This document shows positions 1,863 to 16,202 of a stretch of 64,000 bases of DNA, one piece after another. Within the stretch, counting starts at the first letter, position 1. Each line of letters opens with the position of its first letter. The notes under the pieces were generated by a model, which saw nothing but the letters and a program-made list of their open reading frames with translations, searched no databases and was not told the origin of the DNA. This DNA is from Sphingobium sp. Z007 (GTDB lineage: Bacteria > Pseudomonadota > Alphaproteobacteria > Sphingomonadales > Sphingomonadaceae), in the NCBI RefSeq assembly GCF_900013425.1, contig NZ_FBXK01000001.1, positions 284,001 through 348,000 of the forward strand. Direction: 5' to 3'. The position numbers and the translations under genes are program-made.

Positions 1863-1873
1863 GGAAATTGCCC

Positions 1874-2182
1874 ATGCTTCGCTGCAAGTTTGCCGTTCAG
1901 CTAACCCAGGGAAAGCGCTTCGCAGGCGCCGTCCCGCCTCTGCATGGGTTTGAATTCTGTACGTCGCGCCAGACCCGAGGGTGTATAGTCTTCCTCAGAC
2001 GCATTGGATGGACCGTGCCTTACAGCCGGACTTCTGTCCGTCGTAGCGCCGCTGCCGAGATCAATTCCGGGAGAATGCTCTTTGCATTTCTGAAACGTGG
2101 CCCAGTTGCGGCGCTAGCACTTTACAGGGATCCGACCAATTCGATCACTACGCCTGGGACCGCTATCCGGAGGGTCGGATGA
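1874..2182 (+). CDS. Small hypothetical protein, possibly spurious
   Basis: A 102-residue frame starts at ATG 1874 with a good Shine-Dalgarno stretch (AAGGAAA, 1861-1867). It ends in a TGA overlapping the ATG of the next gene (ATGA overlap), which suggests translational coupling. The sequence is Arg-rich with no domain, signal peptide or membrane segment that I recognise. It lies between a relaxase gene and a lytic transglycosylase gene on the same strand. The main alternative is that this is a non-coding or decayed spacer. Confidence 0.3.
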   Translation: MLRCKFAVQLTQGKRFAGAVPPLHGFEFCTSRQTRGCIVFLRRIGWTVPYSRTSVRRSAAAEINSGRMLFAFLKRGPVAALALYRDPTNSITTPGTAIRRVG

Positions 2183-2685
2183 GGTCATACGGCATCCCCA
2201 GGCTGTTACACACTGCCGTCATCAGTATGGCATTGTACAACGCCCCCGCATTTTCTAAATCCTCAGATGACAGGGAACTGCGAATCGCCGCCTGCATTCG
2301 GCAAGCCTCGCGTGGTCAACCCTGGCTGGAGAAAACGCTTTGGGGACTGCGCGATCAGGAAGCGGGCTGGATCGGCGCCGAGGTTCGCAACAGCAATGGT
2401 TCTCACGATCTTGGTCCCCTGCAGATCAACAGTTGGTGGACACCTCGCATCGCGGCGCTTGTTGGACGTTCACCCGTTCAGGTTCGACATTGGCTGCGTT
2501 TTGATCCCTGCTTCAACGCGCAGGCTGCAAGGTGGATATTCCTGGCCGCCTTGCGCTCAACCGGTAGCTACTGGGAGGCGATTGGCGTCTATCACAGCCC
2601 GACGACGTGGCGGCAGAGACGCTATCGTAGTTCGGTAGCTCGGCATATGCGGACAAGATACGGAGATGCTGTGTTTCGCCCATGA
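2179..2685 (+). CDS. Lytic transglycosylase, VirB1/TrbN-like
   Basis: The 168-residue protein has a hydrophobic N-terminus (LLHTAVISMALYNAPAFS) that looks like a signal peptide, followed by an SLT-type goose-lysozyme-like domain. The segment around GLRDQEAGW supplies the likely catalytic Glu, and DLGPLQINSWW matches the conserved G-x-x-Q-x-N block of the family. Such enzymes open peptidoglycan locally so that a type IV secretion or conjugation machine can be assembled in the periplasm. The position just behind a relaxase gene supports this role. It ends three bases before an IS5-family end, so the original downstream neighbours have been replaced by insertion sequence debris. Confidence 0.75.
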   Translation: MRSYGIPRLLHTAVISMALYNAPAFSKSSDDRELRIAACIRQASRGQPWLEKTLWGLRDQEAGWIGAEVRNSNGSHDLGPLQINSWWTPRIAALVGRSPVQVRHWLRFDPCFNAQAARWIFLAALRSTGSYWEAIGVYHSPTTWRQRRYRSSVARHMRTRYGDAVFRP

Positions 2686-2687
2686 TA

Positions 2688-3180
2688 GGCTTTGTTGCAT
2701 AATTACGCGAGAGTCTGATCGACGTTTTATTTGAAGATGTTATTCGACGCGGACGGAAACCGGCGTTCCTATTTCGGAGAACCGATTGAGAATTGCAGCA
2801 CGGACTTTGATCTCGGTAATTTGACGGTCGAAGGTGCGGGCGACAACGCGCTGGCCCAAGAGTTTGAAGCAGTGCATTTTGGTCTCGACCAGACTGCGGC
2901 GATGATAGCCGCTCCACTTTTTCCAGATTGCGCGACCAAGCCGCTTTGTCGCGCTTAGCGCTCCATTTCGTGCATCGATGCCGGGACCGCCTTCCGCCCA
3001 TGGTTGCCCGTTGCGGCGGACCGGGGTGACCGCATCGGCACCGCGCTCGGCAATAGCGGCATGGCAGTCCCTGGTATCATAAGCGCCATCTCCGCCGACG
3101 CTGAGTATCCGCTCGTCTCTAGGGATTTGCGCCAGGAGAACGGGCAGCGTGGGTGCGTCGCCAATGGCATTCGTCGTGAT
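2688..3180 (-). pseudogene. IS5-family transposase, C-terminal fragment with IS end
   Basis: Reading the minus strand from about 3180 gives ITTNAIGDAPTLPVLL..., then SVGGDGAYDTRDCH, KWSGYHRRSLVETKMH and a final SVRVE followed by a stop at 2740-2742. This is the end of an IS5-family DDE transposase; the last catalytic Glu is in the YHRRSLVETK block. The terminal sequence GGCTTTGTTGCAT at 2688-2700 resembles an IS end. The N-terminal half is missing: upstream of residue I the frame meets a stop, because the sequence switches there to an IS630-type element on the other strand. A relic, not functional. Confidence 0.8.
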
Positions 3181-3652
3181 CCAAACTTACTCGCCGCTGG
3201 GCGAAGCGCGGCACGAGCCCTTCAGCATCAAAGGATCAACGACGGTCTTCCGCATGGATCTTCGGGCGATCTGCCCCGCTGAAAGCAGGGCTGCCGGCAT
3301 CGTCATGCCCAGATGCAACAGCGAAGCGATGAGCATGCATCTTGAGGAAATCGCCTTCCATGTCGCGCCGGGCGCCCACGCAGTGGTGCTACTCGATCAA
3401 GCCGGATGGCACGGCTCTGTCGAACTGGTCATTCCGCCCAACATCACGCTGATGCCGCTTCCGCCAAGATGTCCCGAGTTGAGCCCGGTTGAAAACGTAT
3501 GGCAGTTCATGCGCGATAACTGGCTATCGAACCGCATCTTCAAATCCTACGACGATATTGTCGACCACTGCTGCTACGCCTGGAACAAGCTTGCAGATCA
3601 GCCAAGGCGCATCATGTCCCTCGGACTGCGTCAATGGGCCCATGGGTTCTAA
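3181..3652 (+). pseudogene. IS630-family transposase, C-terminal fragment with a frameshift
   Basis: From 3183 the plus strand reads KLTRRWAKRGTSPSASKDQRR...SAWIFG, typical of IS630 DDE transposases. The continuation AICPAE...MPRCNSEAM is in another frame: one G is missing near 3260-3270 (TTCGGGCGATC where the usual reading needs TTCGGGGCGATC). The rest is intact, including LLDQAGWH, LPPRCPELSPVENVWQFMRDNWL with the last acidic residue, and the end HGF at 3652. Both the truncated N-terminus and the frameshift make it inactive. It abuts the IS5 fragment with no spacer. Confidence 0.8.
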
Positions 3653-3723
3653 TCAATGCGCATTGGTATTAGCTGTGAGTGTGATCAGTTTCGTTGCACT
3701 TTCGACGTCGGCAAACTGGAGGG

Positions 3724-4325
3724 TTACGCTTCGGCCACAAACACCGACCGAGCGTTCGATAGCTCGCGAAAGCCGTACACGCTCTGATAGCGCCCCATGC
3801 CGCTGTCGTTCACCCCACCGAAGCGCAGTCTGTGTTCGGCGTAGTGCATGAGCACGTAGTTCATCGTCACCCCGCCCGAGGAGGTGCGTTCGAGCACGTC
3901 GTTGACGAACGCCTGGTCGCGGCTGAACACGTACATCGCCAGCGGCTTGCCGTTAACGTCTACCTGATCAACCACCTCGTCCAGCGGGTCGTAGGTGATT
4001 ACGGGCAGGACGGTGCCAAAGATCTCGTCGCGCATCAACCCGGCGTCGAGCGGCGGGTCGACGATGATCCTAGGCTCGATCGTGAAGTCTGCCTCATCCG
4101 CGCCGCCGCCCTTGACGATCCGAGCGCCGCGAGAGACAGCCTCGTTGAGGTAGCCGTGGACGCGAGCGAAGTTGCGCGCGTCCACGATTCTGGACATCCG
4201 CTCCTTCCGGAACACCCCGTTTTGGTAAAACATCCGATCCACGGTGTCGTCGAGCGCCGCAACGAGTTCTTCTCGACGCGCTCGGGGAACCCAGACATGA
4301 TCTATGCATGTCTGCCTCCGAGCAA
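3724..4325 (-). pseudogene. Coniferyl-aldehyde-dehydrogenase-like, C-terminal stub
   Basis: The minus strand carries about 200 residues matching the last 45 percent of a class 3-type (coniferyl/fatty) aldehyde dehydrogenase. Homology begins near the catalytic-cysteine region (QTCIDHVWVPRARREELVA) and runs to the stop at 3724. It is about 70 percent identical by eye to the complete gene at 20857-22197. The N-terminal NAD-binding part is absent: upstream of about 4325 the sequence passes straight into the P450 promoter region. Two normally conserved residues are altered (HRLRFGG for HRLPFGG, VNDSGMG for VNGSGMG), consistent with decay. Confidence 0.8.
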
Positions 4326-4345
4326 CGCCCGCGTCGTGGTACGAC

Positions 4346-4390
4346 TTGACAAACGTATCTTTGCGGCGATACTATACCATAAAGAGTATC
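4346..4390 (+). promoter_or_regulatory. Promoter with overlapping inverted-repeat operator for the P450 operon
   Basis: A TTGACA box (4346-4351) is followed after 16 bases by GATACT (4368-4373), a plausible -35/-10 pair. GATACT is also one arm of an inverted repeat whose other arm is AGTATC (4385-4390), with 11 bases between. The repeat overlaps the -10 box, a typical place for a TetR-type repressor site; the third protein-coding frame downstream region includes a TetR gene at 6134. The ribosome binding site AGGAGTG lies at 4394-4400. Confidence 0.5.
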
Positions 4391-4404
4391 ATCAGGAGTG
4401 ATCC

Positions 4405-6156
4405 ATGCGAGTAGGCGACGTCGATCTCACCAGCCCCGACGCTTTCGTCGCTGCCGTGCCGCACGACTATTTCCGGTTCCTGCGCGAAGAAGCGCCGATC
4501 TCGTTCAGCCCGCGTGCCTCCGATGGCGGGTTCTGGAACGTGGTGCGTCACGCCGACATCCAAGCGGTCGAGCGCAACGTAGAGGTCTTCTCCAGCCGTG
4601 CCAACGTCAGCCCGATGGACGTGGCGGAGGCGCATCTTGCCAACACGATCGACAACTCGATCATCATGACCGATCCGCCCAAGCACAACTTCCTGCGCTC
4701 GGCGATCCGCGATTCTTTCCTGCCCAAATCGGTCAAGCAGCTCGAGGACTCGATGAAGGTCTATGCGCGCAACGCCATCGACGCGATCATTGAGGAGGGC
4801 AGATGCGACCTGCACGACGTCGCCGCCTATACCCCGATCGAAGTCGTGGCCGATGTGCTAGGCGTGCCCAAGCGGGACCGTTCCAACCTGTTCAACTGGG
4901 CGAACCTAATGTTCGGTCAGCTCGATCCCGAGCTGTCGGACGATGCACGGGCGCGGCTCGCGGGCTTCCAGATGATTTCCTACGCGCGCCGGATGACGAA
5001 ACGCCGCCGCGCCGAGCCGACCGACGACGTGTTCTCGCTCATCGCGAATGCGACGCGCGACGGACGGCAGCTGACCGACATGGAAATGGGCGCGACCTTC
5101 ATCGTGCTCGCCACTGCGGGCAACGAGACGACCCGCACCCAGTATCTCCACGGCATGGCCGAACTGATCGCACGCCCGGAGGTCGCTGAGGAACTGCGTA
5201 CCAATCCGTCGCTTTTGCCCAACGCGGTCGATGAGATGCTACGCTGGACGACGCCTGCGCTTGGTTTTGCGCGCAAGGCGACGCAGGATTTTGAGTTGCA
5301 CGGGCAGACGATCGCGGCCGGTCAGCGCGTCATGCTGTGGTATGTGTCGGGCAACCGTGACGCTGAGGTGTTTGATGATCCGAACACGTTTGACATTCGG
5401 CGCGAGAAGGTGGGTAACAAGCACCTCGCGTTCGGCTCCACGGGCGGAATCCATCGCTGCCTGGGACAGATGCTGGCGAAGGCCGAACTCAACGCAATGT
5501 TTGAAGAAACGCTGGCGCGTATTCCCGACATGCGGCTCGACGGCGAAATCCGGCGGCTGCGATCGAACTTCACCAACGGTATCAAGCATATGCCGGTCCG
5601 CTTCACCCCTGGTAGGCGGATGGGGGATGACACGCCTGTCCCGCTCTACGCGACCGGCATCGACCAAGCAGGGATTGCAGCGGCTGCCGCAGCCGCCGCG
5701 GCTGCGGTCGCGCCGACAGTGATCGAGGACCGCGACGACGGCATCCGGCTCGTGCCGCTGGCACGTGCGACCCTAACTCTCGGCGTTCCCGCGGTCATGC
5801 CCGGCACGCCGCGCGGTATGCGGATGATCGTCGACGTCGCCGATGCGCGCTGGGAGGGCCGCATCAATGCACGCCAGCTAGGCCAGCCGTCGGGTGACTG
5901 GGCGGTGGTCGATTCCCAAGGCACGCTCTGTTTAGACGTCCGGTCTACGCTGGAGACCGATGATGGCGCGCTGATCTTCGTCCGCTACGAAGGCCGGTCG
6001 GACTACACCAAGGCTGGTGCGTCGCCGATCATCGCCGCGCCGCTATTCGAGACCAATGACCCGCGCTACGCTTGGCTCAACAAGGTGCAAGCGATTGCGA
6101 AGGGGCGAGCGGCCGGGCTGACCACCCTGGTCTATGACATCTATGAGGTCCGCTAG
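4405..6156 (+). CDS. Cytochrome P450 fused to a C-terminal DUF3237 domain
   Basis: The 583-residue protein has two parts. Residues 1 to about 405 form a P450: I-helix ATAGNETTR, K-helix E-x-x-R in EMLRW, and the haem loop AFGSTGGIHRCLG with the axial Cys. The I-helix and loop resemble the CYP125/CYP142 group, but the loop has one extra residue and its Phe is displaced. A linker with about ten consecutive Ala (near residues 425-438) leads to about 140 residues matching DUF3237, a small beta-barrel family (PLARATL..., GDWAVVDSQGTLCLDVR, DDGALIFVRYEGR, YEVR at the end). P450s of this class are normally about 400 residues and stand alone. The substrate is unknown; the operon partner epoxide hydrolase suggests an epoxidation or hydroxylation route. 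Confidence 0.85.
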   Translation: MRVGDVDLTSPDAFVAAVPHDYFRFLREEAPISFSPRASDGGFWNVVRHADIQAVERNVEVFSSRANVSPMDVAEAHLANTIDNSIIMTDPPKHNFLRSAIRDSFLPKSVKQLEDSMKVYARNAIDAIIEEGRCDLHDVAAYTPIEVVADVLGVPKRDRSNLFNWANLMFGQLDPELSDDARARLAGFQMISYARRMTKRRRAEPTDDVFSLIANATRDGRQLTDMEMGATFIVLATAGNETTRTQYLHGMAELIARPEVAEELRTNPSLLPNAVDEMLRWTTPALGFARKATQDFELHGQTIAAGQRVMLWYVSGNRDAEVFDDPNTFDIRREKVGNKHLAFGSTGGIHRCLGQMLAKAELNAMFEETLARIPDMRLDGEIRRLRSNFTNGIKHMPVRFTPGRRMGDDTPVPLYATGIDQAGIAAAAAAAAAAVAPTVIEDRDDGIRLVPLARATLTLGVPAVMPGTPRGMRMIVDVADARWEGRINARQLGQPSGDWAVVDSQGTLCLDVRSTLETDDGALIFVRYEGRSDYTKAGASPIIAAPLFETNDPRYAWLNKVQAIAKGRAAGLTTLVYDIYEVR

Positions 6157-6859
6157 CTCCGCACCCGCTGGCGGGGCCGTGGCGGACGACATCCTCGCCG
6201 CCGCGCGGCACGCCATCGCGGCACGCGGGCTGGACGCGACGACGATCGAGGATATCGCGGCCGAGGCAGGGGTCAGCCGCGCCACGCTGTATCGGCGCTC
6301 GGGCGGGCGCGAGGCGATCCTGGTCGAGGTGCTTCGGCGGGAGGCGGAGCCGTTCGTCTCGGAAACGAATGCCGCCGTCGGTGAGCGCTCCGGGCTCACC
6401 GAGCGACTAATCGCGGGCCTCGTCTACGCGATCGACGCGCTGCCACGCTATCCGCTGCTTCACGCCGTTTTCGGCAGCACGACGTCAGACGCCAAGCTCA
6501 AGATCGTCCGGCCGGTGTTCCGCGCGCTGGTTGATGCGACGCTGCTCGCCGTGCTCGCCGATGCGCGTGCGAGCGGCATACCGGTCCGCGACTTTGACCC
6601 GGACGAGCTGGCCGACTGGCTACTTCGAGACTTCCTCTACGTCGCATCGCAGGCGCCTTGGCCGCAGGGCGAGCTGGAGCGATATCTCGCCACGTTCGTG
6701 ATGCCCGTGCTCCAGCCAGGCTTGCCGCCACCCGGCACCGTTCAGGCTTTCGCTTCGCTGGAGAGTATTGACCGGATGACCATCGCGATCGACGTCGCGG
6801 CGCGCGAAGCGGCAGGGTTGCGCCGTCAAGTCGCCGAGCAGCTGCAAAGAGGCAAGTGA
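6134..6859 (+). CDS. TetR/AcrR-family transcriptional regulator
   Basis: About 240 residues, with an N-terminal HTH: ILAAARHAIAARGLDATTIEDIAAEAGVSRATLYRR is the classical TetR DNA-binding segment (about residues 18-55). The ligand-binding C-terminal part is not specific. ATG codons at 6134 and 6143 both lie inside the end of the P450-DUF3237 gene, so the two are translationally coupled. The stop overlaps the start of the epoxide hydrolase gene (TGATG). It probably controls its own operon through the inverted repeat at 4368-4390, sensing the P450 substrate or product; that is inference. Confidence 0.85.
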   Translation: MTSMRSASSAPAGGAVADDILAAARHAIAARGLDATTIEDIAAEAGVSRATLYRRSGGREAILVEVLRREAEPFVSETNAAVGERSGLTERLIAGLVYAIDALPRYPLLHAVFGSTTSDAKLKIVRPVFRALVDATLLAVLADARASGIPVRDFDPDELADWLLRDFLYVASQAPWPQGELERYLATFVMPVLQPGLPPPGTVQAFASLESIDRMTIAIDVAAREAAGLRRQVAEQLQRGK

Positions 6860-7998
6860 TGAGCGACGCGATCGAACCGTTCACCCTCGCGATCCCGCAG
6901 GCCGCGCTCGACGACCTTGGGGCACGTCTGGCACAGACGCGCTGGCCGGAGCGCGAAACGGTCGACGGCTGGCAACAGGGCGTGCCGCTCGACGCTATGC
7001 GCCGGCTCATCGACCATTGGCGCGATCGTTACGACTGGCGGCGTTGCGAGGCGATGCTTAACGCCTTTGGCCAGTATCGCACGATAATCGATGGTCTCGG
7101 CATGCACTTCCTCCACGTCCGTTCGCCCGAACCCGGGGCACTTCCCCTGATCCTGACGCACGGCTGGCCCGGGTCGGTGATCGAGTTCCACAAGGTCATT
7201 GGCCCGCTCACCGACCCTCGCGCGCACGGCGGCGATCCGACAGACGCGTTCCATGTCGTCGTGCCGTCGCTGCCCGGCTACGGTTTCTCCGATCGGCCGG
7301 CGGGCATAGGTTGGCCGGTGGCGCGGATCGCACGCGCTTGGATCGAGCTTATGCGCCGGCTCGGCTACCTGCGCTTCGTAGCGCAGGGCGGCGACTGGGG
7401 ATCGGCGGTGACCAACGCGATCGGCGCTATCGGCGCGCCTGAAGTCGCGGGCATCCACCTCAACATGGTCGTCGCGCGGCCGGCCGCGGAGGACATGGCC
7501 GACCTCTCCGACGCGGAGAAGCGCGCGATCGCGGACCTGAAGCGCTACGGGCGCGATGGCAACGGCTATGCAACCCAGCAGGGCACACGCCCGCAGACGC
7601 TGGGCTACGGCCTGACCGACTCACCCGTGGGGCAGGCGGCCTGGATCTTCGAGAAGTTCGCCGAGTGGACCGACAGCAGCGGCGATCCGTACAGCGTGCT
7701 GAGCGCGGATGAGATGCTCGACAACATCATGCTCTATTGGCTCCCTAGCACGGCCGCATCGTCGGCGCGTCTCTATTGGGAGAGCTTCCGCGCATTTAAC
7801 GCCGACCCGGTAACGGTCCCGGTCGCCTGCAGCATCTTTCCCAAGGAGATATTCCGCGCGTCACGCCGTTGGGCGGAACGGCTTTATCCCAACCTCATCC
7901 ACTGGAACGAACTCGAACGCGGCGGCCATTTCGCCGCGTTCGAGCAGCCGGAGTTATTCACGCATGAGCTGCGCGCAGCGTTTCGGCCACTGCGTTGA
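6859..7998 (+). CDS. Epoxide hydrolase (alpha/beta fold, EHN N-terminal domain)
   Basis: 379 residues from the ATG at 6859 (a GTG precedes it). The N-terminus (PFTLAIPQAALDDLGARLAQTRWPE) is the epoxide hydrolase N-terminal domain, as in juvenile-hormone and microsomal-type enzymes. Catalytic features follow: oxyanion motif HGWPGS, nucleophile Asp in QGGDWGS, and the general base His in RGGHFAAFEQPE. It converts an epoxide to a vicinal diol in the cytoplasm or at the membrane. Third gene of the P450 operon, with TGATG overlap to the regulator, so a P450-made epoxide is a sensible substrate. Length is normal for the family. Confidence 0.85.
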   Translation: MSDAIEPFTLAIPQAALDDLGARLAQTRWPERETVDGWQQGVPLDAMRRLIDHWRDRYDWRRCEAMLNAFGQYRTIIDGLGMHFLHVRSPEPGALPLILTHGWPGSVIEFHKVIGPLTDPRAHGGDPTDAFHVVVPSLPGYGFSDRPAGIGWPVARIARAWIELMRRLGYLRFVAQGGDWGSAVTNAIGAIGAPEVAGIHLNMVVARPAAEDMADLSDAEKRAIADLKRYGRDGNGYATQQGTRPQTLGYGLTDSPVGQAAWIFEKFAEWTDSSGDPYSVLSADEMLDNIMLYWLPSTAASSARLYWESFRAFNADPVTVPVACSIFPKEIFRASRRWAERLYPNLIHWNELERGGHFAAFEQPELFTHELRAAFRPLR

Positions 7999-8268
7999 AC
8001 ACCTTCAATCGGCCGTGACTATCCTGATCGTACATGCACCTTCTCACGCTTTCGAGCCGCGACTTTGCTGCACCCCTCGATCGTCTCGCGGTTGGCGGTA
8101 ACGATTCTGTCGGCCGCGACGATCGTGCTAAACGGGGCCATGAGGAAATGTGGGACATTGGTGCCGGAGTAGGTGTCAGCGCGCTATGCAGGGTCGGTGG
8201 CCAGACCAGCAACACCGACCCAGCACGCCGCTGATCCAGAGGTCGAGGAGGCGCGCGCGCCCGGGATC
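7999..8268. other. Intergenic stretch, no gene recognised
   Basis: No convincing coding frame on either strand. Short open frames here lack ribosome binding sites and familiar sequence. The stretch separates the epoxide hydrolase gene from the remains of a pRiA4b ORF-3-like gene and may contain the lost promoter of the latter. Confidence 0.4.
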
Positions 8269-8838: not shown

Positions 8839-8855
8839 GATGGTGTCCCAGGACG
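8839..8855 (+). repeat. Left terminal repeat piece of IS256-b
   Basis: GATGGTGTCCCAGGACG matches 14 of 17 positions of the IS256-a terminal repeat (GGTCGTGTCCCAGGAGG at 9866). The next base starts an IS110 copy, exactly as in both IS256-a repeats. It marks where IS256-b entered the pRiA4b ORF-3-like gene. Confidence 0.6.
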
Positions 8856-9865
8856 TTCTCTAATCGCCACTGTCAACAGCTGACCTCTTTGCGGTTCGTC
8901 ACGCGCGCTGGGCTCCAGGGTTCTCTCCGCGGTCGTCGCGCTGGACGCCGCATGTTAGCGTTCAAAGTAGGGTGAATCTAAGTGGTGTGCGCGGTCCGTG
9001 CCGCACTCGCGGGAACGATCTCACCCTCGCTAAGCGTCCCAGCGGGACGCGTTCTGTCGCGCTTGAGTTCAGCGTATTGCTTCGGATTTGGATCAGGCCA
9101 TGGCCGCCTCCCGGAAGGTCGTGTTGGTACGCCACATTGCGTGCAATGTTACCGCCAGCTTCCTGGCCAGGGCGACTTTCGCTTTGCGAGGCCCGGTTCG
9201 GCCTGCGATCGCCTGTGCCCACTCACGCAGGCGAGGGCCGCCAAGCTTTCGAGACAAGATCGCATTTGCTGCTTCGTACAGGCATTTTCGAGCGAACCTG
9301 TCACCGCTTTTCGAGATGCGCCCGTTCCGGCTGATTTCGCCAGATTCGTAGCGCCTTGGCGTCAGACCGAGATAAGCGCCCGCGCTGGAAGATCGGTTGA
9401 AGCGTTCGGCGTCGTCGAATGCTGCAGTTACCGCCATCGCGGTGATCGGTCCGACTCCCGGCGCTGTCATCAAAAGACGTACCGTACCATGCTGTTTGGC
9501 TACCGCCCGGATTTTGCCATCGAGAGCGGCAATACGGGCTAGAATTTCACTCCGGGCGTGCATCAACGCTTCAAAGATAGGTATGAGCTCCGGTGCGACT
9601 GCCAGCTCGCCTGTGATGATCTCCGTCGCACGGCGTTTGAAGCCCCCAACCCGTTTTCCGAACATCACGCCAAACGTTTTCAGCAACCCTCTGATCTCAT
9701 TTTCAAGCTTCACACGCATGCCAACCAGCGTATCGCGCGCTGTCAGCATCGCCCGGTTAACATAGGCCTCATGACTCTTTATCCGGGCAGCCTTGAACCA
9801 ACCTGTGCGGACAATCTGAGCCAAGCCGCGAGCATCATGTCTGTCGGTTTTATTTGGCATCATTT
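8856..9865 (-). mobile_element. IS110-family element, copy A: 3' part of an interrupted copy (completed by 13963-14321)
   Basis: 1010 bp identical or nearly so to the intact copies, ending where IS256-a is inserted. The remaining 359 bp lie at 13963-14321; 1010 + 359 = 1369 bp, exactly the length of the complete copies. The transposase reading frame (9093-9865) encodes residues from MMPNKTDRHDARG to the C-terminus and is therefore a 5'-truncated pseudogene. At 9528-9535 it carries the same base as copy C and differs from copy B (GAGAGCGGCAA against GAGAGCAGCAA). Confidence 0.9.
9858..9865. repeat. 8-bp target duplication of IS256-a, left copy
   Basis: CATCATTT occurs immediately before the left terminal repeat of IS256-a and again immediately after its right one (13955-13962). 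In intact IS110 copies (for example at 10885-10892) the octamer is present once within the transposase gene. 8-9 bp duplications are usual for IS256-family insertion. Confidence 0.85.
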
Positions 9866-9882
9866 GGTCGTGTCCCAGGAGG
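9866..9882 (+). repeat. IS256-a left terminal repeat, outer 17 bp
   Basis: GGTCGTGTCCCAGGAGG, interrupted after base 17 by IS110 copy B. The inner continuation GGAACCGTC is found at 11252. Confidence 0.75.
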
Positions 9883-10119
9883 TTCTCTAATCGCCACTGT
9901 CAACAGCTGACCTCTTTGCGGTTCGTCACGCGCGCTGGGCTCCAGGGTTCTCTCCGCGGTCGTCGCGCTGGACGCCGCATGTTAGCGTTCAAAGTAGGGT
10001 GAATCTAAGTGGTGTGCGCGGTCCGTGCCGCACTCGCGGGAACGATCTCACCCTCGCTAAGCGTCCCAGCGGGACGCGTTCTGTCGCGCTTGAGTTCAGC
10101 GTATTGCTTCGGATTTGGA
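9883..10119 (-). ncRNA. Candidate bridge-RNA region of IS110 copy B
   Basis: IS110-family elements are known to encode a structured bridge RNA in a long non-coding end; in IS1111-type members this lies downstream of the transposase gene. Here the only long non-coding segment is the 237 bp between the transposase stop and the element's 3' end. It is conserved in copies A (8856-9092) and C (13701-13937). I have not folded it or identified the target-binding loops. Confidence 0.3.
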
Positions 10120-11151
10120 TCAGGCCATGGCCGCCTCCCGGAAGGTCGTGTTGGTACGCCACATTGCGTGCAATGTTACCGCCAGCTTCCTGGCCAGGGC
10201 GACTTTCGCTTTGCGAGGCCCGGTTCGGCCTGCGATCGCCTGTGCCCACTCACGCAGGCGAGGGCCGCCAAGCTTTCGAGACAAGATCGCATTTGCTGCT
10301 TCGTACAGGCATTTTCGAGCGAACCTGTCACCGCTTTTCGAGATGCGCCCGTTCCGGCTGATTTCGCCAGATTCGTAGCGCCTTGGCGTCAGACCGAGAT
10401 AAGCGCCCGCGCTGGAAGATCGGTTGAAGCGTTCGGCGTCGTCGAATGCTGCAGTTACCGCCATCGCGGTGATCGGTCCGACTCCCGGCGCTGTCATCAA
10501 AAGACGTACCGTACCATGCTGTTTGGCTACCGCCCGGATTTTGCCATCGAGAGCAGCAATACGGGCTAGAATTTCACTCCGGGCGTGCATCAACGCTTCA
10601 AAGATAGGTATGAGCTCCGGTGCGACTGCCAGCTCGCCTGTGATGATCTCCGTCGCACGGCGTTTGAAGCCCCCAACCCGTTTTCCGAACATCACGCCAA
10701 ACGTTTTCAGCAACCCTCTGATCTCATTTTCAAGCTTCACACGCATGCCAACCAGCGTATCGCGCGCTGTCAGCATCGCCCGGTTAACATAGGCCTCATG
10801 ACTCTTTATCCGGGCAGCCTTGAACCAACCTGTGCGGACAATCTGAGCCAAGCCGCGAGCATCATGTCTGTCGGTTTTATTTGGCATCATTTTGAGGACC
10901 GCATTAGCGTGACGCGCATCCAGGCAAATGATCGGGACACGCCGCTTCGTCAGCGCGTTCCAGAGCCAGACGGCAAGGGGACCTGTCTCCATTCCCACCC
11001 GTTCGACATCCGCGGCGCGCTTCGCTAGCCAGTCGGCTATCGCGTCAGGGCAGGTCGGCACCTTCGCCTCCGCGAGAATCTCACCTTCCGCCCCAACCAG
11101 GCAAATCGCCGTCTCCTCCTGTGACACATCCAGTGCTGCAAAAACTCCCAT
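10120..11151 (-). CDS. tnp: IS110-family transposase (DEDD recombinase), copy B
   Basis: 343 residues from the ATG at 11151 (MGVFAALDVSQEETA). The N-terminal RuvC-like DEDD domain is seen as ALDVSQEET, GMETGPLAVWLWNAL, DARHANAVLKMM and NKTDRHDARGLAQ. The C-terminal Tnp domain has MTAPGVGPITAMAV, SSSAGAYLGLTPRRYESGE and RNGRISKSGDRFAR with the serine used in IS110 chemistry. The frame could be extended upstream, but the conserved family start and the reading in all copies favour this ATG. It differs from copy C by at least one silent base. Confidence 0.95.
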   Translation of the reverse strand: MGVFAALDVSQEETAICLVGAEGEILAEAKVPTCPDAIADWLAKRAADVERVGMETGPLAVWLWNALTKRRVPIICLDARHANAVLKMMPNKTDRHDARGLAQIVRTGWFKAARIKSHEAYVNRAMLTARDTLVGMRVKLENEIRGLLKTFGVMFGKRVGGFKRRATEIITGELAVAPELIPIFEALMHARSEILARIAALDGKIRAVAKQHGTVRLLMTAPGVGPITAMAVTAAFDDAERFNRSSSAGAYLGLTPRRYESGEISRNGRISKSGDRFARKCLYEAANAILSRKLGGPRLREWAQAIAGRTGPRKAKVALARKLAVTLHAMWRTNTTFREAAMA

Positions 11152-11291
11152 AACGTCCTCCACGTTCGACTCCGGCCGAGCGCCGAAGCGGCAATGACAT
11201 CCTACCGCAACAAAGCGGAGGTCGAGTGTGGCGATTACGTTAAGTGGTGTAGGAACCGTCAATCCACGGCAGGATCGGGATCGGGTTCGGG

Positions 11292-12488
11292 TCAGGCAGC
11301 CAGAGCTGGCAGGCTGACAATGGGGTTATGGCTCACCGCGCCGATTGTTTCCAGCGTCATGTAGCGGCGTGACACCGCCCATTCATCATTCTGCTCCAGC
11401 ATCAGCGCGCCGACGAGGCGTATGACCGAGGCATCATTGGGAAAGATGCCGATGACATCGGCCCTTCGCTTAATCTCCTTGTTCACCCTTTCCAGCGGGT
11501 TGGTGGACGCGATCTGCGCCCAGTGATCCTTCGGGAACGCCATGTAGGCAAGCACATCCTCGCGCGATGCGTCCATCATGTCGGCCAGCTTCGGGAACTT
11601 CTCGCGCAGGGCATCGGCGACCTGCTCCCACTGCTGGTGCGCCGCTTCGGTCGTCTCCTGCGCGAAGATCGTCTTGATCATGGCAATCACGGCGGGCCGC
11701 TGTTTGGGCGCGGCATGGGCCAGCGCGTTGCGCATCCAGTGCACCCGGCAGCGTTGCTGGCTCGCGGCAAACACCTTGCTGGCGGCAGCGCGCAGTCCCT
11801 TGTGATCATCGGCGATGACCAGCTTCACCCCGCGCAGTCCGCGATCCGCCAGCGAACGCAGGAAGGCTTTCCAGAAGGGCTCCGCCTCCGAAGGGCCGGT
11901 GGCGACGCCCAGAACTTCACGGCGGCCATCGGTGTTGACGCCAACGGCGATTATCGTCGCCGTCGAGACGATCCGTCCGCCCTCACGCACCTTGAGGTAG
12001 GTGGCGTCGATCCACAAATAGGGCCACTCGCCCTCGATCGGGCGGGTGAGGAAGGCGTTCACCCGCTCGTCAATCTCGGCAACCAGGCGGCTGACCTGGC
12101 TCTTCGATACGCCGCTGGCGCCCATCGCCTTAACCAGATCGTCGACCGAACGGGTCGAGACGCCGTGCACATAGGCCTCCTGGATCACCGCTGCCAAGGC
12201 CTTCTCGGCGGTGCGGCGCGGCTCCAGGAAGCTCGGAAAGTAGCTGCCTTTGCGCAGCTTCGGGATCGCCAGATCGATCCGACCGGCACGGGTGTCCCAT
12301 CCCCGTTCGCGGTAGCCGTTGCGGTGGTTCAGTCGCGACTGGCTGCGACTGCCGGCGGGCGCACCGGTTCTGGCCTCAATCTCCAGATCCATCATGCGCT
12401 CAGCGGCAAAAGCCAGCATCTCGCGCACCAAATCGCTGTCAGCCCCTTGCTCGATCAGCTCAACAAGGGCCATTCTGTCATCGGTCAT
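11292..12488 (-). CDS. tnp: IS256-family (mutator-type) transposase of IS256-a
   Basis: 398 residues, full length for the family. Typical blocks are: [88 protein letters not shown] with the first catalytic Asp, LVIADDHKGLRAA with the second Asp, CRVHWMRNAL, and NPLERVNKEIKRRADVIGIFPN with the catalytic Glu. The frame is intact. Its element is the one whose two terminal repeats carry IS110 insertions. Confidence 0.95.
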   Translation of the reverse strand: MTDDRMALVELIEQGADSDLVREMLAFAAERMMDLEIEARTGAPAGSRSQSRLNHRNGYRERGWDTRAGRIDLAIPKLRKGSYFPSFLEPRRTAEKALAAVIQEAYVHGVSTRSVDDLVKAMGASGVSKSQVSRLVAEIDERVNAFLTRPIEGEWPYLWIDATYLKVREGGRIVSTATIIAVGVNTDGRREVLGVATGPSEAEPFWKAFLRSLADRGLRGVKLVIADDHKGLRAAASKVFAASQQRCRVHWMRNALAHAAPKQRPAVIAMIKTIFAQETTEAAHQQWEQVADALREKFPKLADMMDASREDVLAYMAFPKDHWAQIASTNPLERVNKEIKRRADVIGIFPNDASVIRLVGALMLEQNDEWAVSRRYMTLETIGAVSHNPIVSLPALAA

Positions 12489-12568
12489 CGTCTTCTTCTC
12501 CAGGTTCGAGTTCGCATCCGAACCCTACCAGAAGATCGACGGTGGCCACCCTCTCAGGGAAACCTTCC

Positions 12569-13937
12569 TACACCACTTAACGTAATCGCCACACTCGACC
12601 TCCGCTTTGTTGCGGTAGGATGTCATTGCCGCTTCGGCGCTCGGCCGGAGTCGAACGTGGAGGACGTTATGGGAGTTTTTGCAGCACTGGATGTGTCACA
12701 GGAGGAGACGGCGATTTGCCTGGTTGGGGCGGAAGGTGAGATTCTCGCGGAGGCGAAGGTGCCGACCTGCCCTGACGCGATAGCCGACTGGCTAGCGAAG
12801 CGCGCCGCGGATGTCGAACGGGTGGGAATGGAGACAGGTCCCCTTGCCGTCTGGCTCTGGAACGCGCTGACGAAGCGGCGTGTCCCGATCATTTGCCTGG
12901 ATGCGCGTCACGCTAATGCGGTCCTCAAAATGATGCCAAATAAAACCGACAGACATGATGCTCGCGGCTTGGCTCAGATTGTCCGCACAGGTTGGTTCAA
13001 GGCTGCCCGGATAAAGAGTCATGAGGCCTATGTTAACCGGGCGATGCTGACAGCGCGCGATACGCTGGTTGGCATGCGTGTGAAGCTTGAAAATGAGATC
13101 AGAGGGTTGCTGAAAACGTTTGGCGTGATGTTCGGAAAACGGGTTGGGGGCTTCAAACGCCGTGCGACGGAGATCATCACAGGCGAGCTGGCAGTCGCAC
13201 CGGAGCTCATACCTATCTTTGAAGCGTTGATGCACGCCCGGAGTGAAATTCTAGCCCGTATTGCCGCTCTCGATGGCAAAATCCGGGCGGTAGCCAAACA
13301 GCATGGTACGGTACGTCTTTTGATGACAGCGCCGGGAGTCGGACCGATCACCGCGATGGCGGTAACTGCAGCATTCGACGACGCCGAACGCTTCAACCGA
13401 TCTTCCAGCGCGGGCGCTTATCTCGGTCTGACGCCAAGGCGCTACGAATCTGGCGAAATCAGCCGGAACGGGCGCATCTCGAAAAGCGGTGACAGGTTCG
13501 CTCGAAAATGCCTGTACGAAGCAGCAAATGCGATCTTGTCTCGAAAGCTTGGCGGCCCTCGCCTGCGTGAGTGGGCACAGGCGATCGCAGGCCGAACCGG
13601 GCCTCGCAAAGCGAAAGTCGCCCTGGCCAGGAAGCTGGCGGTAACATTGCACGCAATGTGGCGTACCAACACGACCTTCCGGGAGGCGGCCATGGCCTGA
13701 TCCAAATCCGAAGCAATACGCTGAACTCAAGCGCGACAGAACGCGTCCCGCTGGGACGCTTAGCGAGGGTGAGATCGTTCCCGCGAGTGCGGCACGGACC
13801 GCGCACACCACTTAGATTCACCCTACTTTGAACGCTAACATGCGGCGTCCAGCGCGACGACCGCGGAGAGAACCCTGGAGCCCAGCGCGCGTGACGAACC
13901 GCAAAGAGGTCAGCTGTTGACAGTGGCGATTAGAGAA
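12569..13937 (+). mobile_element. IS110-family element (IS1111 style), intact copy C
   Basis: 1369 bp on the plus strand, a mirror image of copy B across IS256-a. It begins TACACCACTTAACGTAATCG and ends before CCCCGTGGGACACGACC, the right terminal repeat of IS256-a. As in the other copies, the 3' end of IS110 faces the tip of the IS256 repeat. Confidence 0.85.
12669..13700 (+). CDS. tnp: IS110-family transposase, copy C
   Basis: 343 residues, the same protein as copy B, from ATG 12669. The open frame extends far upstream through the antisense of the IS256 transposase, but that extension is not coding. All DEDD and C-terminal serine motifs are intact, so this copy and copy B could each be active. 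Confidence 0.95.
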   Translation: MGVFAALDVSQEETAICLVGAEGEILAEAKVPTCPDAIADWLAKRAADVERVGMETGPLAVWLWNALTKRRVPIICLDARHANAVLKMMPNKTDRHDARGLAQIVRTGWFKAARIKSHEAYVNRAMLTARDTLVGMRVKLENEIRGLLKTFGVMFGKRVGGFKRRATEIITGELAVAPELIPIFEALMHARSEILARIAALDGKIRAVAKQHGTVRLLMTAPGVGPITAMAVTAAFDDAERFNRSSSAGAYLGLTPRRYESGEISRNGRISKSGDRFARKCLYEAANAILSRKLGGPRLREWAQAIAGRTGPRKAKVALARKLAVTLHAMWRTNTTFREAAMA

Positions 13938-13954
13938 CCCCGTGGGACACGACC
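13938..13954 (-). repeat. IS256-a right terminal repeat, outer 17 bp
   Basis: Read inward on the minus strand it is GGTCGTGTCCCACGGGG, followed by the 3' end of IS110 copy C. It mirrors 9866-9882 with 2 mismatches. Confidence 0.75.
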
Positions 13955-13962
13955 CATCATTT
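13955..13962. repeat. 8-bp target duplication of IS256-a, right copy
   Basis: CATCATTT, matching 9858-9865. IS110 sequence resumes at 13963. Confidence 0.85.
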
Positions 13963-14321
13963 TGAGGACCGCATTAGCGTGACGCGCATCCAGGCAAATG
14001 ATCGGGACACGCCGCTTCGTCAGCGCGTTCCAGAGCCAGACGGCAAGGGGACCTGTCTCCATTCCCACCCGTTCGACATCCGCGGCGCGCTTCGCTAGCC
14101 AGTCGGCTATCGCGTCAGGGCAGGTCGGCACCTTCGCCTCCGCGAGAATCTCACCTTCCGCCCCAACCAGGCAAATCGCCGTCTCCTCCTGTGACACATC
14201 CAGTGCTGCAAAAACTCCCATAACGTCCTCCACGTTCGACTCCGGCCGAGCGCCGAAGCGGCAATGACATCCTACCGCAACAAAGCGGAGGTCGAGTGTG
14301 GCGATTACGTTAAGTGGTGTA
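13963..14321 (-). mobile_element. IS110-family element, 5' part of the interrupted copy (continues copy A)
   Basis: Contains the 5' end of the element and the transposase start (ATG at 14221) through residues ...DARHANAVLKMM, after which IS256-a interrupts the gene. The 5' boundary GTTAAGTGGTGTA at 14309-14321 is the same as in copies B and C. Beyond it lies GCTGGGGCGG, taken to be the continuation of the IS256-b terminal repeat. Confidence 0.9.
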
Positions 14322-15294
14322 GCTGGGGCGGTCCCCGCGTTTTCCGGCGTCAGCCTGAGCCGGTCATGTTCCGGGCACAGCCGAGAGCAGGATGATGGGA
14401 TTATCGCTGACTGGTGCCATGGCTTCAACGGTCATGTAGCGGGCACGCCGGACAGCCCATTCGTCGCTCTGCTCCATGAGGATGGCGCCGACGGGCGGGG
14501 TGATGGCGATCTCGTTGGGAAGATGCCGACGATGTCGGTCCTGCGCTTGATTTCGCCGTTGAGGCATTCGATCGGGTTGGTGCTGTGCAGCTTGGCGCGG
14601 TGCTCCCTGGGTAAGGTCATGTAGGCCAGCACATCTGGCTCGGCATCGTCCATCAGGGTCGCCAGCTTGGGCAGCTTGGGCCGGATCTGATCGGGGACGG
14701 CGCGCCATTGCTGGCTGGCGGCTTCGGACGTCTCCTGCGCGAAGGCGGTGTCGATAAAGGCGGAGACGACGCGCCGCCCGCTCTTCATTGGCCAGGGCTT
14801 TGCGCATAAAGTGCACCTGGCAGCGCTGCCAGCAGGCGCACAGCAGCTGGGAGACCGCCGCCTTAATCCATTCGTGGGCATCGGAGATGACCAGCTTGAC
14901 GCCGAGCAGGCCGCGCCGGGCGAGCTTGCGCAGGAAGGCGGTCCAGAATGGCTCGGCTTCGCTCGGGCCGATATCCTGCCCAGCACCTCGCGGCGGCCTC
15001 GCTGTTGACGCCGACCGCGACGATCGCAGCGACCGAGACGATCCGCCCCTTTTGGCGGACCTTCACATAGGTGGCGTCGATCCAGAGATAGGGCCAGTCC
15101 CCCTCGATCGGGCGGTCGAGGAAGGCTTGGACACGCTCGTCGATATCATCGCACAGCCTGCTCACCTGGCTCTTGGAGATGCCCTCCATCCCCATGGCTT
15201 TGACCAGATTATCGACCGAGCGGGTCGAGATGCCTTGGATATAGGCTTCTTGGATCACCTCCGTCAGCGCCCGCTCCGCCATACGTCGGGGTTC
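14322..15294 (-). pseudogene. IS256-b transposase, truncated and multiply frameshifted
   Basis: Minus-strand pieces in three frames align with the IS256-a transposase: [29 protein letters not shown]...[18 protein letters not shown] (about 15280-15010), then FIDTAFAQETSEAASQQW...NPIECLNGEIKRRTDIVGIFP (about 14770-14530), then EQSDEWAVRRARYMTVEAMAPVSDNPI (about 14480-14400). At least two frameshifts separate them. The N-terminal quarter is gone, replaced at about 15295 by an IS3-family remnant. Related to, but clearly diverged from, IS256-a, so an older insertion. Confidence 0.85.
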
Positions 15295-15723
15295 CGCCGC
15301 ATGATGGCCAGATTGTAGTCGACACCGGCTTGGGCAGGTAATAAATGCTGCCGCGGCTGACCCCAGCTCTCGGGCCTGCCGCCCTAGCGGCAGAGCGTGC
15401 GAACGGTCGATCATCGCTTTGCGCTCGGCAACAGTCCCGCCTTCCCGAGCGCCCCGGGAAAAATCGTTCACCAGCGTCAGTTCGCGAATCTTGGCGCGGA
15501 GCGTCTTCACGTCAATCGTCGGCTCCGTCACCTCGATCCGCGTCTCATTACCGAATACACCCGCAGCCCCTTCCAGGAGCTGACCACGCCACTGCGTGAT
15601 CTGATTAGGGTGAACGTCAAACTGCTGCGCCAGCTCGCATAGCGTATTCTCGCCCTTAACAGCGGCCAACGTCACCTTTGCCTTGAATGCCGGGCTGTGG
15701 TTCCGGCGGGGTCGTTTGCTCAT
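15295..15723 (-). pseudogene. IS3-family orfA and start of orfB, remnant
   Basis: From ATG 15723 the minus strand reads [41 protein letters not shown] and [10 protein letters not shown], a clear IS3-family OrfA with HTH and leucine-zipper region. After NDF the frame departs from the usual [15 protein letters not shown] ending, which is readable one frame away. OrfB-like sequence then follows ([20 protein letters not shown]). OrfB ends after about 40 codons where IS256-b sequence begins. The open frame running through both is therefore an artificial IS3/IS256 chimera. Confidence 0.8.
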
Positions 15724-15730
15724 CTTTGCT

Positions 15731-15763
15731 CCTGACACGCGGCCATCATGGCCGCGTGTCAGG
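15731..15763. repeat. Perfect inverted repeat upstream of IS3 orfA
   Basis: CCTGACACGCGGCCAT, one base, then its exact reverse complement: 16-bp arms. It sits 7 bases from the orfA start codon, so the orfA transcript would begin with a very stable hairpin ahead of the ribosome binding site. It probably belongs to the IS3 element and may limit transposase translation or read-through from outside. Confidence 0.6.
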
Positions 15764-16202
15764 CAGAAAATCCACTTAGCGCCCTGTTCAGTTTCGCCAG
15801 GCCACATCTCTGCACGACCGGCGCACGATTTTCAAACGCTCGGTCACGCTGGCCACGGATCGGCATCAGGGTGGCTATGCGGCCCTTATCGAGCAACTCG
15901 ACGCCCAGCGGAACCTCTATGCTACAAAATTCGACGCGATCAGCGTGCGACAGCTCTCGCATAACGCTCTACCGGGCGCTGGGCAGCGGATGGTCTGGCG
16001 GACAAACTCGCGGAAGATGATCGCCATATTTTTCTTGGAGCGACGATAGAACGGGGTTGGCATTGCCAGTCAGCCTCGTCCACAAATCGCTTCAGGCCAT
16101 GCTCGTGGCCAGTCGGGCGCTTATGTCGGCAGGCACTCGTCCTACCAGAGCCTCAACCTAAAACCGGCGATGAATGTCGGCACGGCCAGCAAACTATAAT
16201 TT
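15764..16202. other. Intergenic debris, no gene recognised
   Basis: About 440 bp between the IS3 end and the first gene of the catabolic cluster. Short open frames exist on both strands but none has a ribosome binding site with recognisable protein similarity. The first 20-30 bp next to the hairpin probably still belong to the IS3 end. The rest looks like an eroded gene or IS segment. Confidence 0.4.

Follow-up and report, generated by a model that had tools for sequence, protein, structure and literature searches.

Insertions of an IS1111-group element into IS256 terminal repeats in Sphingobium sp. Z007, probably guided by the element's own RNA

In a 64,000-nt stretch of Sphingobium sp. Z007 (NZ_FBXK01000001.1, positions 284,001–348,000, forward strand; hereafter the window), three near-identical 1360-bp copies of an IS110-family, IS1111-group insertion sequence (IS) lie between 8857 and 14313, nested with IS256-family elements in the order IS110 in IS256-a in IS110 in IS256-b. 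All three copies occupy the same place in an IS256 terminal repeat, in the same orientation and with the 3′ end facing the repeat tip, raising the question of how one element repeatedly comes to sit at a single position in the ends of others. The sequences make it very likely that a non-coding RNA of this element directs its insertion into IS256 terminal inverted repeats, and the window element is probably an RNA-guided IS1111 element specialized on IS256 ends. Position and orientation, an empty site resolved to the base, use of the same site by relatives, a conserved predicted RNA and guide bases varying with the target are established at the sequence level. The original prediction had proposed an IS1111-like element targeting IS256 terminal repeats at one position, a proposal that is strongly supported and is here extended to a predicted RNA guide. 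Its placement and orientation of the three copies agree with the sequence, as do its three outer tip sequences; the copies do share one position, said to lie 17 bp inside the repeat, and the tip outside IS110 consists of 16 bp plus a GT core.

Inside the IS256 repeat, the insertion point reads GTGTCCC-N5-GT-GGTGTA, with GT at both junctions. Read in the direction of IS110, the site is TACACC-AC-N5-GGGACACG, and the presence of AC at both junctions indicates that IS110 was added without loss of sequence. Uninterrupted IS256 ends identify GTGGTGTA as IS256 sequence, intact copies reading GTGTCCC-N5-GT-GGTGTAGGAA. Three plasmid relatives (L066, L067 and L069) carry GGTCGTGTCCCACGGG-GT-GGTGTAGGAA with both ends uninterrupted, and the uninterrupted ends of L068 have GCGGG in place of ACGGG. 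The left end of the window's IS256-a is itself present without interruption in Sphingobium sp. Ant17 (L044), and genome G196, of the same genus, contains an intact 1365-bp IS256-a with an 8-bp duplication, GTGCGGAT. Removal of both IS110s and one core each from the window IS256-a leaves 1365 bp, 1363 of which are identical to the G196 copy, and the empty site fits end extensions of 6 bp on the left and 4 bp on the right with the 2-bp AC core on both sides. The search for an uninterrupted IS256-a proposed originally was therefore successful, although the length is 1365 bp and not the 1351 bp expected. The IS110 length of 1369 bp likewise becomes 1360 bp, the earlier figure having taken in GTGGTGTA (8 bp, the inner IS256 half-repeat) and one core base opposite. 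As that boundary was set 8 bp too deep into IS256 on one side, the repeat does not adjoin GGAA directly; intact repeats keep GTGGTGTA, and the direct join to GGAA by which the prediction was to be judged fails if taken literally. At the Ant17 locus, the inner flank is that of IS256-a, but the 5-base spacer opposite matches other IS256s of this draft genome (L042, L045), a mixture that may reflect recombination between IS110 copies or misassembly.

Relatives of the element were collected by a scan of genome contigs, which gave 48 loci; 46 were examined (L060 and L065 were left out, and the right end of L039 was ignored), and the IS110 ends were located with patterns taken from the IS itself. 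This listing of insertion sites, also proposed with the original prediction, places the IS256-repeat motif beside nearly every end. All 34 readable left flanks fall within one mismatch of ACACCAY (passed by 0.24% of all 7-mers), and 33 of 36 readable right flanks carry GGGACAC at +5 within two mismatches (1.3% pass), the exceptions being L027, L049 and L041, the last with CGGACGTGACC. Both ends were available at 28 loci, among which 25 pass both flank tests and 27 distinct right flanks occur. IS256 transposase homology was found within 1.7 kb on the inner side at 26 of 34 loci, in either orientation, and both IS256 ends are used by the relatives. A separate observation concerns Sinorhizobium medicae pSymA (L090), where the IS110 right end is tandemly duplicated (~45 bp) ahead of the IS256 flank.

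The remainder of the Z007 genome agrees with this pattern. A fourth IS110 copy lies in IS256-c, a third IS256, where it occupies the right repeat and leaves the left one free, and is itself interrupted by another IS; a fifth, a remnant on contig C2, adjoins the IS256-like tip GGCCGTGTCCACGGG, so that all four copies and one remnant stand at IS256-type tips. The target motif YGTGTCCC-N5-RTGGTGTA occurs eight times in the 4.94-Mb genome, always at the ends of IS256-like copies, and its backward control has no match there. Across 199 genomes of the family, the motif occurs 63 times in 18 genomes (one match for the control columns), and 30 of the 63 occurrences form inverted pairs 1.3–1.5 kb apart, the expectation for IS256 ends.

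A candidate guide is located in the 236-bp non-coding region downstream of the transposase gene, which is conserved among elements whose transposases are ~80% identical. In copy 3 the predicted guide-RNA (seekRNA/bridge RNA) region spans 13756–13884 (+). In the consensus fold of 24 aligned sequences (alignment A1), a stem encloses an internal loop capped by a short apical hairpin; the two loop strands, TCCC-N5 and ACACCAC-TT, match the two target halves. In the window these strands are the putative right target guide TCCCGCGAG (13779–13787, +), which would pair with the repeat-tip half, and the putative left target guide ACACCAC followed by TT (13805–13813, +), the TT matching the IS left end; a putative donor guide, AGAGAAC (13867–13873, +), matches the IS right end and core. 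In the stem and in another hairpin, close to AGAGAAC, both sides changed in 33 cells (9.5 in shuffles), and pairing holds in 96% of cells, as opposed to 24–41% when slid; the structure was obtained by RNAalifold on the same alignment, which favours it. As described for IS1111 seekRNAs (PMC11187229), the top-strand match precedes the bottom-strand match in 5′-to-3′ order. An Rfam search of window positions 12500–14000 returned nothing at E values of up to 1.

Guide and target bases were compared in 59 rows, 40 of which had both a left flank and a guide. The guide 7-mer equals the left-flank 7-mer in 35 of the 40, a count whose partial circularity is weighed below, and in every row the next two nucleotides agree with the IS left end. 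Four Sinorhizobium/Rhizobium rows (L086, L090, L102 and L103) have AT instead of TT in both the guide and the IS left end, the L086 transposase being 58% identical. Similarly, L031, L041 and L071 have ACACCAT instead of ACACCAC in guide and flank, and their putative donor guide changes from AGAGAAC to AGAGAAT. The five variable bases permit a less circular comparison, as they were taken from the guide ahead of the apical hairpin: over n = 37 distinct pairs, guide and target N5 agree at a mean of 2.51 of five positions, whereas shuffles gave 1.74 and none of 20,000 reached the observed value (p ~5e-5). This set kept L039 (spurious right end) and L049 (shifted), omitted own_4 and merged identical guide/target pairs; three rows with the guide GGACCAC stood outside the shuffles, and among alternative hairpin anchors the one preceded by the best TCCC was chosen. 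Without L039, L049 and L090, the mean is 2.65 versus 1.80 (n = 34), with four exact matches where 0.38 are expected, and restriction to a single row for each guide (n = 20) gives p of 5e-4 to 2.5e-3 over 30 draws.

Variation of the guide extends to a sister group. L092, L093 and L104 carry GGACCAC as guide, and GGACCAC is also the left flank at both loci that retain a left end (L092 and L104; that of L093 is lost). In a FastTree tree of 35 of the 38 proteins (three of <250 aa were dropped), L092 and L093 are intermediate between two groups with IS256-type left flanks, the Sinorhizobium/Rhizobium type on one side and L039 with the main clade on the other; a target switch is the simplest reading of how the GGACCAC group arose. 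Among more distant relatives, L088 and L105, which stand beside IS5-type transposases, have downstream-region segments matching their own left flanks. On the P. yeei CCUG 32053 plasmid pYEE5 (L105, 3350–4950), an IS110 whose transposase shows 38.5% identity is located at the 3′ end of a transposase gene of the IS5 family. The left flank of this IS110, at the IS5-type end, recurs as CAATGAGATG in its downstream region, and its core looks like TG, as given for ISPye46 of Paracoccus yeei. On the S. medicae plasmid pMl1 (L088), a 45% identical IS110 lies just ahead of an apparent IS5-type transposase start, judged by eye, and the downstream segment AAAAAGAT matches its left flank. Flank reading of the outgroups L087, L089, L095–L101 and L057 gave no settled target.

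Several observations weigh against RNA-guided insertion into IS256 ends. The agreement in 35 of 40 rows is partly circular, the guide search pattern having been modelled on the target, and a pattern that resembles the target leans the counts toward agreement; alignment position and loop are evidence independent of that pattern. The N5 shuffles do not fully remove the relatedness of the elements, and at most loci the right guide, while agreeing with TCCC, fits just part of the five variable bases, the window guide matching three of five at both IS256-a ends. In the covariation test, further pair types (15 versus 14.2 in shuffles) are not above expectation, and single-sequence folding is unremarkable (z of −1.2 for the window, −0.8 for L092 and −2.2 for L086). 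Eight of 34 loci lack an IS256 transposase, whether decayed, deleted or replaced by another element with such ends; L027, with a poor right half and no IS256 match in its 8 kb, is possibly an off-target insertion, and L049 lacks two junction bases. At L031, L041 and L071, where guide and left flank have an AT core, the right junction is AG or AA, not AT; L041 and L071 share their right flank and probably represent one insertion. Finally, end extensions in the IS1111 group are 7 (or 6) bp on the left and 3 bp on the right, and a 7/3 division fails to restore the intact repeat.

If IS110-IS256-IS110 moved as a unit, as a composite transposon, the shared position would reflect common descent instead of repeated targeting. 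An IS256 between two inverted IS110s does occur in the window, and IS256 is likewise occupied at both ends in the Cereibacter plasmid CP031753 and in L048/L051, a pair of loci sharing their flanks; arrays of this form are also described from P. yeei, in a study that considered a functional composite element (PMC11578231). The host IS256s differ, however (IS256-a, -b, -c and many others), and both of their ends are targeted. With one end of IS256-c free, IS256-a existing without IS110 and 27 distinct right flanks in 28 two-ended loci, descent from one composite is very unlikely.

The transposase might instead recognize the IS256 repeat itself, leaving the RNA match as a by-product. The IS256 repeat, conserved in sequence, serves as a binding site for protein, which would suit such recognition, and the RNA considered here is a predicted one; yet the guide segments vary with the target, as seen in the N5 test and in the GGACCAC group, and lie on opposite strands of a covarying internal loop, as in the proven seekRNA/bridge RNA systems (PMC11187229, PMC11208160, PMC11208158), so that protein-directed targeting retains a slim chance. 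The near-invariance of the left flank ACACCAC beside IS110 could also suggest that the supposed target bases are conserved IS110 ends, present for that reason at every copy. The same bases nevertheless stand at uninterrupted IS256 ends without IS110, and an intact 1365-bp IS256 is recovered once 1360 bp and one core are taken out, which refutes misread ends for IS256-a and makes them almost inconceivable as a general explanation. On this evidence, composite descent, protein-only targeting and misread ends were each rejected as the primary reading.

RNA guidance is established for the IS110 family (PMC11187229, PMC11208160, PMC11208158), and for the window element it would operate as follows. 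An RNA made from the downstream region would bind the transposase and pair with the two repeat strands, ACACC-AC with one half and TCCC-N5 with the other, while AGAGAAC would pair with the circle junction; strand exchange at the AC/GT core would then put the whole IS inside the repeat without sequence loss. IS256 ends would serve as a conserved, multi-copy landing pad, each new IS256 copy adding two sites. The simplest history of the nest would begin with IS256-b, followed by insertion of IS110 into its repeat, of IS256-a into the gene of that IS110, and of IS110s into both IS256-a ends. An IS256 occupied by IS110 would probably be immobile until IS110 leaves; if occupation does block IS256, such IS110s would be natural brakes on other insertion sequences.

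Within the IS256 repeat, the 5-base spacer separating the two conserved blocks (window 13939–13943) is hypervariable, holding both differences between the window IS256-a and the intact copy over 1365 positions; in genome G057, where one IS256 (1478 bp) is present in five copies (L155–L159), two of 16 variable columns fall in one such spacer. A doubtful reading is that the spacer varies as an escape from IS1111 RNA guides, whose five bases would evolve to follow in an arms race. The match of guide and target spacers beyond chance, the confinement of IS256-a's only differences to the spacer and the G057 columns are compatible with it. G057, however, has no close relative of the window IS110 (best match, 42%), and spacer variation may therefore have another cause.

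At the outer level of the window array stands the terminal-repeat tip of IS256-b, GATGGTGTCCCAGGAC plus GT core (8839–8856, +), outside IS110 copy 1 and laid out as in intact repeats. Copy 1, housed in the terminal repeat of this degenerate IS256-family element, lies on the minus strand, and its transposase gene is split by IS256-a: the right-end part, with the 3′ part of the gene and the guide-RNA region, covers 8857–9865, and the left-end part, with the 5′ part of the gene, 13963–14313. Together the parts make up 1360 bp identical to copy 3, while copy 2 differs by one base. IS256-a is flanked by the 8-bp target duplication CATCATTT, whose left copy (9858–9865) also belongs to IS110 copy 1 and whose right copy occupies 13955–13962; duplications of 8 bp, in the window as in G196, lie in the family range of 8–9 bp. 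Its left tip, GGTCGTGTCCCAGGAG plus GT core (9866–9883, +), has the intact counterpart GGTCGTGTCCCAGGAGGTGGTGTAGGAACC in L044 and G196. IS110 copy 2 (9884–11243, −; 1360 bp) is housed in the left repeat, its gene (10120–11151, −) encoding a 343-aa transposase with NF033542, PF01548 and PF02371 and a start set as in copy 3. The body of IS256-a (11244–12576, +), with GT/AC cores at both edges and the inner half of a repeat at each end, contains a 398-aa transposase gene (11292–12488, −). Copy 3 (12577–13936, +; 1360 bp), with its 343-aa transposase gene at 12669–13700 (+), is housed in the right repeat, which ends in an AC core and the tip CCCGTGGGACACGACC (13937–13954, +). The rest of IS256-b, comprising a GT core, the inner repeat and a degenerate transposase, extends over 14314–15295 (−), the end being approximate; window positions 14395–15295 correspond to a match at G000:C1:298395–299295, 70% to IS256-a, with broken open reading frames (ORFs). 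The other terminus of IS256-b was not found, and an IS3-type orfA-like stretch at ~15600–15780, judged by eye, seems to cut the element off.

The family assignments rest on profile scores and end structure. The DEDD transposase with its C-terminal Transposase_20 domain scores 242.2 bits against NF033542 (cut-off 140) and carries PF01548 and PF02371. Sub-terminal inverted repeats of the IS1111 group are given as usually 11–13 bp (PMC11187229) or 7–17 bp (PMC11208160); in copy 3, TAATCGCCAC (12583–12592, +) and its partner GTGGCGATTA (13923–13932, +) match exactly over 10 bp, inside the wider range and just below the usual one. The non-coding region is longer downstream of the transposase gene (236 bp) than upstream (92 bp), as in the IS1111 group. 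IS256-a belongs to the IS256 family by its Mutator-type transposase, with an NF033543 score of 356.7 bits (cut-off 150) and PF00872, and by its terminal inverted repeats.

Searches for close IS110 relatives in 298 genomes of the family (E<=1e-100) and 385 of the class (E<=1e-120) returned only the window's own genome, and none of 15 pattern-matching stretches in viral contigs encodes a relative, a patchy distribution. A search of a phage collection with the IS256 transposase gave only matches of <60% identity and was not used. The Z007 genome has 21 IS110 matches in all, the window's own included, and its other IS110s were compared as four groups by repeated blocks only. IS256-c and the fourth IS110 copy (L009, G000:C1:214000–223000, at ~1016–8050) lie between ORFs that by eye resemble a lasso-peptide cluster, with small precursor-like, transglutaminase-like and asparagine-synthetase-like genes; the further IS interrupting the fourth copy occupies ~4216–5862 of this locus. 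In L010 (G000:C2), scattered related IS110 right-end pieces lie at ~2859–2914 and 5715–5766, one adjoining an IS256-like tip, with an IS21-like gene pair, judged by eye, between them.

The loci assembled here form a natural set for a probably RNA-guided transposon on IS256 ends, combining many insertions, an empty site, a guide loop, a second clade with other left-end bases, and a sister group that differs in both guide and flank; its co-varying spacer makes guide–target co-evolution measurable. The host element of IS4321 and IS5075 is of the Tn21/Tn3 type, and IS1384, which hosts IS1383, is an IS5-family element. Like the window IS110, IS4321 and IS5075 are IS1111-group elements targeting the terminal repeats of another mobile element, Tn21-family terminal inverted repeats in their case (PMC11187229, PMC11208160), with a target logo for IS4321 drawn from nearly 900 insertions (PMC11187229); IS and host element differ from the window case, which concerns the IS256 family in Alphaproteobacteria. 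IS1383 is an IS1111-type element likewise aimed at the inverted repeats of another IS, IS1384, described as its specific target (PMC11208160), differing in its host element and its occurrence in Pseudomonas putida; L105 and L088, beside IS5-type transposases, look like this precedent. IS621 with its bridge RNA and ISEc11, ISPa11 and ISKpn4 with their seekRNAs resemble the window element in having guide segments for two target strands and a donor match, and IS621 also in a matched core dinucleotide; the targets of these systems are different sequences, for IS621 repetitive extragenic palindromic (REP) elements (PMC11208160), and their RNAs are experimentally demonstrated, whereas that of the window element is predicted.

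ISPye46 of Paracoccus yeei by its published description resembles the window IS110 in length (1361 bp) and in divergent orientation around IS256-family genes, forms arrays of IS110-IS5/IS256-IS110, and differs in direct repeats given as TG, not AC/GT (PMC11578231). That report leaves two explanations undecided, preferential transposition into IS256 or IS5 and a functional composite element, and states that BLASTn did not find such arrays elsewhere (PMC11578231). RNA-guided insertion into IS256 ends is a candidate explanation for these arrays. The original prediction had called IS256 targeting a new example: the targeting strategy is supported, but IS110-IS256-IS110 arrays had already been published for ISPye46 (PMC11578231). 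Other reports of IS256 repeats as IS1111 targets were not recognized in the open-access literature searched, outside which most subscription-journal papers lie. The strategy is already known from IS4321 on Tn21 and IS1383 on IS1384, and the IS256-targeting clade constitutes a well-supported and well-documented new case of it.

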